From Microcaldota archaeon (GTDB lineage Archaea > Micrarchaeota > Micrarchaeia > Norongarragalinales > Norongarragalinaceae): 64,000 nt of DNA. The notes beneath the pieces were generated by a model that was given only the letters and a program-made list of their open reading frames with translations, was not told the DNA's origin and ran no database searches. The position numbers and the translations under genes are program-made. The stretch covers positions 62,001 to 126,000 of the forward strand of contig JACQQD010000012.1 in the NCBI GenBank assembly GCA_016207165.1, given 5' to 3'. Shown piece after piece: positions 1 to 5,730 of the stretch. The first letter of the stretch is position 1. Every line of letters begins with the position of its first letter.

Positions 1-1295
1 AATTTGTTTTCAACATCAACGTGCCCACCCGCGTGGGCTTCCAGACGCCGTTTACCAACATCACCATGGACTTAAACGTGCCGAACATGATGAAAGGCGA
101 GCCCGTCATTGCGGGCGGAACATTCCAGAACGAGGTATACGGCGACTTTCAGCCGGAACTGGACGTCTTGAATCAGGCGTTTGCCGAAGTCATGATGGAA
201 GGCGACGCGCAAGAAAGGGTGTTCACGTTTCCCATTCCCACGTACAACATCACGAAAAACTTCAATTGGGACGCGCCGGTCGTGAAAAACGTGTTCGAAA
301 TGACGGCCAAGTACGGCGTGCCATACTTTTCCAACTTTGTCAACTCCGACATGTCGCCGGAAGACGCCAGGAGTATGTGTTGTCGATTGAGGCTCGACAA
401 CCGGGAACTGCGCAAACGCGGCGGAGGACTCTTTGGAGCCAATCCGCTTACCGGAAGCGTGGGGGTCGTCACCATCAACTTACCCCGCATTGGCTTTACG
501 TGCAAGACCGAAGACGCGTACTTTGAAAAACTCGACGCCTTAATGGACTTGGCCAAAGAAAGCCTGGAAACCAAGCGCCACGTATTGGAAGGCTTCACGG
601 AAAAAGGGCTGTACCCGTATTCACGGTACTACCTGCGCGACATCAAAAGCCAGTTCGGCCAATACTGGAAAAACCACTTCGCCACCATCGGCCTCATTGG
701 AATGAACGAGTCCGTCCAGAACTTTTTGGGCGTGTCCATCGCCGACATCCAAGGCAAAGCCTTTGCACTCAAAATCCTCACCCACATGCGCAACCGCTTG
801 GGCCAGTACCAGGAGGAAACCGGAAACATCTATAACCTGGAGGCCACTCCCGGCGAAGGCACGTCGCACCGCTTGGCGCGGCTGGACGCCGCCATGCACC
901 CCGGCATCCGCGTGGCCAACCAAAACGCCGTCAACGTCCGCCAGGCCGCGGCATACTACACGAATTCCTCGCACCTACCCGTAGGCCACACGACGGACGT
1001 TTTCGAAGCCTTGGAACACCAAGACGAACTCCAAACCCAGTACACCGGCGGAACGGTGCTCCACGGATTTTTGGGAGAACAAGTCTCGGACTGGCGGACT
1101 GCCCGGGACTTGGTGCGCAAAATCGCGGAAAACTTCCACCTCCCGTACTTCACGTTGACACCCACGTTTTCCGTCTGCCCCAACCACGGGTACCTTGCGG
1201 GCGAGCATTTCTATTGCCCCACGTGCGACGAAGAAATCGGGTACGTTCAAGAAAAGGAGGAGAAAACCCATGGAAGCGCAATGCACCCCACATGA
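1..1295 (+). CDS. nrdD: Anaerobic (class III) ribonucleoside-triphosphate reductase, C-terminal part, 5' end outside window
   Basis: Reduces ribonucleoside triphosphates to deoxyribonucleotides by glycyl-radical chemistry. The frame is already open at base 3 (residues FVFNIN before VPTRVGFQTPFTNITMD), so the gene enters from the left. Family signatures are GSVGVVTINLPRIGF, the EATPGEGTSHRLARLD segment and, near the end, a zinc knuckle CPNHGYLAGEHFYCPTC. The protein stops about 20 residues after the knuckle, before the RVxGY glycyl-radical motif that normally closes NrdD. That motif is found in a separate small ORF at 1440-1580, so the enzyme appears split. nrdG follows, as expected for this family. 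Confidence 0.93.
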   Translation, partial: FVFNINVPTRVGFQTPFTNITMDLNVPNMMKGEPVIAGGTFQNEVYGDFQPELDVLNQAFAEVMMEGDAQERVFTFPIPTYNITKNFNWDAPVVKNVFEMTAKYGVPYFSNFVNSDMSPEDARSMCCRLRLDNRELRKRGGGLFGANPLTGSVGVVTINLPRIGFTCKTEDAYFEKLDALMDLAKESLETKRHVLEGFTEKGLYPYSRYYLRDIKSQFGQYWKNHFATIGLIGMNESVQNFLGVSIADIQGKAFALKILTHMRNRLGQYQEETGNIYNLEATPGEGTSHRLARLDAAMHPGIRVANQNAVNVRQAAAYYTNSSHLPVGHTTDVFEALEHQDELQTQYTGGTVLHGFLGEQVSDWRTARDLVRKIAENFHLPYFTLTPTFSVCPNHGYLAGEHFYCPTCDEEIGYVQEKEEKTHGSAMHPT

Positions 1296-1437
1296 AAACC
1301 TGGAAAACAAGCGAACGAAATGCGAAGTCTACAGGCCGCGGAACCGCGGGGGACACCTCCGCTTCGCTCCGGTTTCCCCCTCAGTTCTACGTTCCTCCGG
1401 ATCCCCCTTCCCACGAAAAGAGGACCAAGAGGTGTAA
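1270..1437 (+). CDS. Truncated first copy of the NrdD tail ORF (55 aa), no radical motif
   Basis: An ATG at 1270 sits 6-7 bases behind a strong GGAGGAG site (1257-1263), inside the end of nrdD in another frame. It reads MEAQCTPHENLENKRTKCEVY, the lead-in of the NrdD tail, and then runs into unrelated Arg/Pro-rich residues at base 1335, where the 41-bp repeat ends. It therefore lacks RVVGY. It looks like the original start of the detached tail gene, interrupted by a duplication/insertion. Whether the peptide is made is unknown. Confidence 0.45.
   Translation: MEAQCTPHENLENKRTKCEVYRPRNRGGHLRFAPVSPSVLRSSGSPFPRKEDQEV
1294..1334 (+). repeat. Direct repeat copy A, 41 bp, NrdD tail
   Basis: Identical over 41 bases to 1446-1486. 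The copies are offset by 152 bases, which is not a multiple of three, so copy A lies in the frame of the 1270 ORF and copy B in the frame of the 1440 ORF. The intervening 1335-1439 is GC-rich with a small palindrome (CCGCGGAACCGCGG near 1337) and has no recognisable gene. Confidence 0.95.
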
Positions 1438-1439
1438 GC

Positions 1440-1580
1440 ATGCAGGAAAACCTGGAAAACAAGCGAACGAAATGCGAAGTCTACAGCCGAGTCGTCGGAT
1501 ACCTTCGACCCGTAGACCAATGGAATGAAGGCAAGCAAGCCGAGTTCTCGGAACGCAAAACATACCGGGTCCAACCATGA
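1440..1580 (+). CDS. Detached glycyl-radical domain of class III ribonucleotide reductase (46 aa)
   Basis: The ATG at 1440 has its own GAGGTG site five bases upstream (1429-1434). The peptide contains KRTKCEVYSRVVGYLRPV followed by DQWNEGKQAEFSERKTY. In class III reductases RVxGY carries the radical glycine and the QWNxGKQxEF segment is the usual C-terminus. NrdD itself (ends 1295) lacks this part, so this small protein would have to supply the radical in trans. Its stop overlaps the nrdG start (ATGA), so reductase, radical domain and activase are translationally coupled. Start choice is firm because of the ribosome binding site. Confidence 0.8.
   Translation: MQENLENKRTKCEVYSRVVGYLRPVDQWNEGKQAEFSERKTYRVQP
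1446..1486 (+). repeat. Direct repeat copy B, 41 bp, NrdD tail
   Basis: Second perfect copy of 1294-1334. Here the repeat continues into the intact glycyl-radical sequence, so this is the copy attached to functional coding sequence. Confidence 0.95.
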
Positions 1581-2266
1581 GAATCGGCGGCTTCCAAAAG
1601 ACGACGCTGGTGGACTATCCCGGAAAAATCGCCTCGATCGTCTTTTTGTCGGGGTGCAACATGCGGTGCGGGTACTGCTACAATGCGCCGTTGGCCACAG
1701 GAAAACTGCCGGATTTAGGCGAGGAAAACGTTTTCCGCGAGATCTCTCAGAGAAAAAAGTACGTGGACGCCGTGGTCATCACCGGAGGCGAGCCCACGAT
1801 TTGGCCCGACCTGCCCCAACGCCTCCAACAACTCAAAAAAGAAGGGTTCCTGGTGAAGTTGGACACCAACGGCTTGAACCCCGAGAAACTCCGGCAAATC
1901 CTTGAATCCGGCGACGTGGACTTTGTCGCCATGGACGTCAAGGCGCCTTGGGCCAAGTACCAAGGCGTGTGCGGGGCCAGGCTTGACGAACGCCGCATCC
2001 ACGAAAGCATTGCCTTGCTTAAGCAAACCGGAGTGGACTACGAATTCCGAACCACCGTGGCACCCGGATTAACGCAGAACGATTTGCGCCGCATCGGCCA
2101 CATGCTTCTGCCGGCCAAGCGGTGGTTCCTGCAAGTGTTTCAGAAAACGGATTCCCTCATGGACCAAGGCGTCCTCACGCTTGCGGTCCTGACGCGGCAC
2201 CAAATCCATGACGTCGTCTTGGAATTCCAGGGAAGCTTCCAAGAATGCGCGCTTCGGGGCCCGTGA
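1577..2266 (+). CDS. nrdG: Anaerobic ribonucleotide reductase activating protein, radical SAM
   Basis: Generates the glycyl radical on NrdD using S-adenosylmethionine and a [4Fe-4S] cluster. The cluster motif CNMRCGYC (CxxxCxxC, Cys27/31/34) lies in the usual N-terminal position, followed by the SAM-binding GGEP at about residue 70. At 229 aa it has the length of the larger archaeal/bacterial NrdG-type activases (PflA/NrdG pyrimidine-RNR activator style), longer than E. coli NrdG. It overlaps the small radical-domain ORF by four bases, so its substrate is probably that peptide in complex with NrdD. Confidence 0.92.
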   Translation: MRIGGFQKTTLVDYPGKIASIVFLSGCNMRCGYCYNAPLATGKLPDLGEENVFREISQRKKYVDAVVITGGEPTIWPDLPQRLQQLKKEGFLVKLDTNGLNPEKLRQILESGDVDFVAMDVKAPWAKYQGVCGARLDERRIHESIALLKQTGVDYEFRTTVAPGLTQNDLRRIGHMLLPAKRWFLQVFQKTDSLMDQGVLTLAVLTRHQIHDVVLEFQGSFQECALRGP

Positions 2267-5319: not shown

Positions 5320-5730
5320 ATGCACATACTGGTTCGCGAAGGACGCGCAGGCGGGTTGAAACTGGAGGTACGGAAAGCAGCCGCGGTAAGGGAAGCAATC
5401 CGTCCCGGAAAGAAAGAGCAGCTGAACGCGGAGGAAACGCAATCGCTTCGGGGCGTAGGAATAATAAAAACGGTGCAGCTGGACAATCCCGGAAACCTGA
5501 AACTTACTCTGACCAAGCTCACCATCGCACACTTCAGGACAAATGGACCCCGCGCCGGAATAACGTTGGATGTCGCGCATCCGCACGCGATTTCCGCGGG
5601 AAACCTGAGAACGCAACTGCGGGAAGCCCGCGAGCTCGTCGTCAAAGGAAAACTGCACACGAAAGCCAAAATCCAAGGAGGCCTGGACAAATACATTGAA
5701 CGGGCGGCATCAAAACAAACAAATAGGTAG
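5320..5730 (+). CDS. Orphan protein, 136 aa (possible paralogue of 3350-3751)
   Basis: Not recognised. Basic, soluble, no membrane segment. Shares with the 3350 protein an MH start, a HFxTxGPxA block at residue 71 and a C-terminal KxQGG block at nearly the same spacing; overall identity is low, so the relationship is an inference. It faces panB tail to tail, as the 3350 gene faces panC. Confidence 0.6.
   Translation: MHILVREGRAGGLKLEVRKAAAVREAIRPGKKEQLNAEETQSLRGVGIIKTVQLDNPGNLKLTLTKLTIAHFRTNGPRAGITLDVAHPHAISAGNLRTQLREARELVVKGKLHTKAKIQGGLDKYIERAASKQTNR

Follow-up and report, generated by a model that had tools for sequence, protein, structure and literature searches.

A class III ribonucleotide reductase with its glycyl-radical tail encoded as a separate small protein

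We analysed a window of 64,000 nucleotides from an archaeal MAG (assembly GCA_016207165.1, contig JACQQD010000012.1, here C12), which begins at genome position C12:62001, inside the gene for the anaerobic ribonucleotide reductase (RNR) NrdD. The features at the start of the window are summarized in Table 1. The NrdD reading frame ends soon after the zinc knuckle and lacks the glycyl-radical motif RVxGY, which is instead carried by a separate open reading frame of 46 codons located between the NrdD body and nrdG. This small ORF, referred to here as the tail, contains KCEVYSRVVGYLRPVDQWNEGKQAEF and matches only the last 32 positions of the Pfam NRDD profile. A profile search of the whole genome (1.27 Mb, 12 contigs, 90% complete) revealed one NrdD body and one tail. 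The complete body gene scores 607 bits against the NRDD profile (cut-off 26.2). The genome also holds one class I/II RNR large chain (PF02867), located on another contig.

Table 1. Features at the junction of nrdD and nrdG, in window coordinates.
Position	Strand	Feature	Basis
1..1295	+	nrdD body, 3' part; gene starts upstream of the window at about C12:61187-61235; ends in TGA 1293-1295 without the radical motif	PF13597 positions 142-532 of 562 (partial because the window starts inside the gene); NF006126, 675 bits, cut-off 548; genome context
378..383	+	adjacent Cys pair of SMCCRL, the probable place of the radical cysteine	invariant in split and fused alignments
1176..1226	+	zinc knuckle C-x2-H ... 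C-x2-C, CPNHGYLAGEHFYCPTC; all four candidate ligands on the body (form A)	sequence
1256..1272	+	GGAGG (1256-1260) and ATG 1270, probable older start of the tail gene, overlapping the end of nrdD; frame now ends at 1437 in the insert	sequence; inference
1291..1334	+	first copy of the 44-nt direct repeat (duplicated tail 5' region)	sequence comparison
1335..1442		108-nt insert between the repeat copies; 1339-1412 matches a dispersed repeat element of this genome	sequence comparison
1429..1434	+	GAGGTG ribosome-binding site of the tail gene, 5-nt spacing to ATG 1440	sequence
1440..1580	+	tail gene, 46-aa glycyl-radical protein; predicted radical glycine codon 1497-1499; stop TGA 1578-1580	PF13597 positions 531-562, E 3.9e-11; invariant R-x2-GY-x-RP
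1443..1486	+	second copy of the 44-nt direct repeat, inside the tail gene	sequence comparison
1577..2266	+	nrdG, radical-SAM activase; ATG 1577 overlaps the tail stop (ATGA)	TIGR02495 (NrdG2), 188 bits, cut-off 131

The 144 bases between body and tail have a composite structure that was not noted in the original prediction. A direct repeat of the start region of the tail brackets an insert, the core of which belongs to a dispersed GC-rich element with relatives elsewhere in the genome and the genus. The older-looking start reads MEAQCTPHENLENKRTKCEVY, and is now cut off from the tail by the insert. We infer that the tail was probably already separate, overlapping the end of nrdD, and that the element later duplicated its start. 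The element (about 65-110 bp) is repeatedly flanked by long direct duplications of the neighbouring DNA (window 1335-1442; loci L004 1440-1607, L157, L158 and L160), and the variable length of these duplications (about 41-44, 44, 62, 22 and 20 nt) is unlike an ordinary fixed-length target duplication. Folding of the insert as single-stranded DNA gave no unusual structure. A second case of repeats of the 5' region of the tail was found in relative G057, where the gap between body and tail (L026 1217-1360) holds two 58-nt copies resembling the start of the tail gene.

The insert and the duplication, together with the presence of another RNR and the reliance on a single MAG assembly, raise the possibility that nrdD was broken by the repeat element and is a pseudogene, or that the split is an assembly artefact. 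We consider this very unlikely. Both sister assemblies (G001 and G002) show the same split, and sister genomes and many unrelated lineages have it without this insert. The tail has regained a ribosome site and is conserved, with dN/dS values of 0.04-0.15 in close pairs and up to 0.26 in wider ones. However, dS is saturated in several pairs, and recent relaxation after the insert cannot be excluded. Because the genome encodes another RNR, loss of NrdD function could be tolerated there.

The split is much wider than this genome, as the original prediction had suggested it might be. Among relatives, body and tail are separate in genomes G000-G003, G006, G009-G013, G019, G020, G048 and G057. In a survey of 295 genomes of the class, 46 have an NRDD hit above the cut-off, of which 33 are split, 11 are only fused and 2 are partial. 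A scan of bacterial and archaeal genomes returned 80 loci, with split ones from Patescibacteria, Acetothermia, Chloroflexi, Desulfuromonadales, Thermodesulfatator, Muiribacteriota, Elusimicrobium, Planctomycetota and others. Deposited records show the same arrangement in Cupriavidus necator H16, Bradyrhizobium, Paracoccus, Thiothrix and Sulfuricurvum, with the small gene named nrdD or ‘hypothetical protein’. On a tree of 127 NrdD bodies from archaea and bacteria, built without the tail columns, 50 are split and at least 18 changes of state are needed (shuffled labels: mean 39.5, minimum 31). The number of changes is approximate, because one gene (L027) is partial and interrupted, and the tree is a quick one. 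The split state is thus inherited in clades, but has arisen or reverted many times.

Other variations of the gene were observed as well. In G020 (L027 and L032; G020:C61:19494-23298), NrdD is interrupted by two long in-frame insertions, probably inteins, and is also split from its tail. In G003, G018 and G021 (L023, L014 and L016, respectively), an NrdR-like zinc ribbon and ATP cone precede NrdD in one open frame, an apparent NrdR-NrdD fusion. In the Deltaproteobacterium Meg22_1012_Bin_147 (L080, near 5430-5591), a fused NrdD has a degenerate radical motif (TEIHTGVIPYGRPIRQWHPRKD), in which the usual RVxGY is lost or altered.

In the window, body and tail happen to lie in the same frame with a single TGA between them, and fused relatives exist, which could suggest that the two ORFs are joined during expression by a programmed frameshift, stop read-through or RNA splicing. 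The comparison among relatives makes this highly improbable. The frame of the tail relative to the body is 0, 1 or 2, and differs between the congeners G009 and G010, while the distance between the two runs from -77 to +254 nt. Nearly every archaeal tail, and many bacterial ones, have a Shine-Dalgarno-like site 3-9 nt before the start codon. The stretch between body and tail in the window is a repeat insert and not conserved, and no intron-like Rfam match was found. Together with the low dN/dS, these observations indicate that the tails are independently translated and conserved. The order body-tail-nrdG is kept wherever nrdG could be located.

Fused relatives carry a variable linker between the zinc knuckle and the radical loop, and the split falls in this linker. 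The barrel residues are invariant in split and fused forms. Two forms of the split can be distinguished by the zinc ligands. In form A, as in the window, all four knuckle ligands are on the body, whereas in form B the body lacks the fourth ligand and the tail has a Cys five residues before its EVYSR motif. Of 44 scored pairs, none of the 34 with CxxC in the body has this tail Cys, while 5 of the 10 without it do (Fisher p = 2e-4, although the sequences are related and therefore not independent), and the other five bodies carry CPYxH instead. Five more pairs read by eye fit, so that in about 10 pairs the fourth ligand sits on the tail. An inter-chain zinc site is therefore predicted in form B. 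AlphaFold2 models of chains read through the stop (L103; window 3-1577) place most of the tail confidently (block pLDDT mostly 84-91), with the junction at low confidence, and the best Foldseek matches to the L103 model are class III RNRs. Because fused homologues were present in the alignment and the linker is artificial, the models show compatibility only.

The best explanation, which we hold with high confidence, is that the locus encodes a two-chain class III RNR. The separately initiated glycyl-radical segment proposed in the original prediction is supported, although activity across two chains is inferred. In this account, the large chain supplies the ATP cone, the catalytic barrel with its cysteines and, in form A, the whole zinc knuckle, and the 46-aa chain supplies the glycyl-radical loop and the C-terminal strap. 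The small chain is inferred to dock into the barrel where the fused tail normally sits, to receive the glycyl radical from NrdG, and to pass it to the barrel cysteine at each turnover. Physiological data support this account: nrdDG of C. necator H16, which is split, is reported to be essential for complete denitrification (PMC2864759, citing Siedow 1999), although this result is taken from the citing paper and concerns nrdDG as a unit, not the tail alone. In addition, five relatives with split NrdD show no class I/II RNR, with the reservation that MAGs are incomplete. Since O2 cleaves NrdD at the radical glycine (PMC3019208), we hypothesize that the separation may be advantageous by turning the oxygen-labile part into a cheap replaceable piece.

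Unexpectedly, many viral contigs carry only the tail. A search of viral contigs with the tail profile gave 80 best loci (L163-L242), of which 63 are stand-alone ORFs (about 40-150 aa) with no NrdD body or nrdG in the flanks examined, 14 are fused, 1 is split with a body and 2 lie at contig ends. All 40 viral contigs searched whole (10-100 kb) contained only tails, but the contigs are mostly fragments, and a body elsewhere in a given virus is not excluded. Flanks of several hold terminase, head, tail or endolysin genes. Some of the stand-alone tails carry an extra N-terminal zinc-ribbon-like CxxC...CxxC part, and one contig (L187/L208) has two different tails. The ANMV-1 virus (L050 3210-3644) and the Allochromatium vinosum plasmid pALVIN01 (L045 3474-3683) show the same; the plasmid gene encodes a 69-aa tail with no NrdD body or nrdG in the 7 kb examined. 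An ANME-1 virome study lists NrdD among viral auxiliary genes (PMC9894754).

The stand-alone tails, and the precedent of GrcA/YfiD for pyruvate formate-lyase (PMC8683613), leave room for a different interpretation, in which the small protein is a spare part for another, intact NrdD, and the tail-less body is inactive or does something else. For the cellular operons this is very unlikely, because no other NrdD was found in this genome, the body keeps its barrel residues, body, tail and nrdG stay together, and the zinc ligands are complementary between chains in form B. We speculate that NrdD glycyl-radical tails form a family of exchangeable radical-carrier proteins: many cells encode the tail apart from the enzyme, and viruses of anaerobes carry the tail alone, so that after infection or oxygen damage a viral tail docks on the NrdD body of the host (split, or cleaved at its glycine) and restarts dNTP synthesis. 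We regard this scenario as about as likely as not. The viral tails point to a possible, apparently undescribed way for viruses to affect host dNTP supply in anoxic habitats.

In the literature that we consulted, class III RNR is described as an enzyme with the radical glycine in the same chain as the barrel, and a family-wide analysis from 2022 suggested that split domains may be distinct to class II RNRs (PMC9669993). We found no description of a separate NrdD radical domain in cells or viruses, in searches that mostly did not cover subscription literature, although automated annotation already has the pieces. The split explains why some of these genes are annotated as small ‘nrdD’ or ‘hypothetical’ pieces. 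A recurrent two-chain form would provide a natural, dissociable system for studying activation by NrdG, radical transfer and oxygen damage.

The system shares with class III RNR NrdD (PF13597; NCBIfam NF006126/PRK08270) the barrel, cysteines, ATP cone, zinc knuckle, RVxGY motif and neighbouring nrdG, but the radical motif is on a separate 46-aa chain instead of at the C-terminus of the same chain. The comparison with GrcA/YfiD made in the original prediction is only partly apt. In both cases a small free glycyl-radical protein acts, or here is predicted to act, on a large barrel chain, but GrcA belongs to a different enzyme family and repairs an enzyme that has its own radical domain, whereas the cellular tails are the only radical domain, and are obligatory rather than spare; the viral stand-alone tails are the closer parallel. 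In the split class II RNR NrdJa/NrdJb (PMC4520616, PMC9669993), an RNR alpha chain is also divided into two polypeptides near its C-terminus. However, class II uses adenosylcobalamin, and the part split off there is an IscU-like/zinc-finger C-terminus, not a radical domain. Finally, nrdD coding sequences are found in pieces in phages (the T4 intron and the fragments in Aeromonas phage phiAS4; PMC3653736), but those are isolated insertions or breaks, whereas the division described here is stable, recurrent and independently translated, and occurs at one place.
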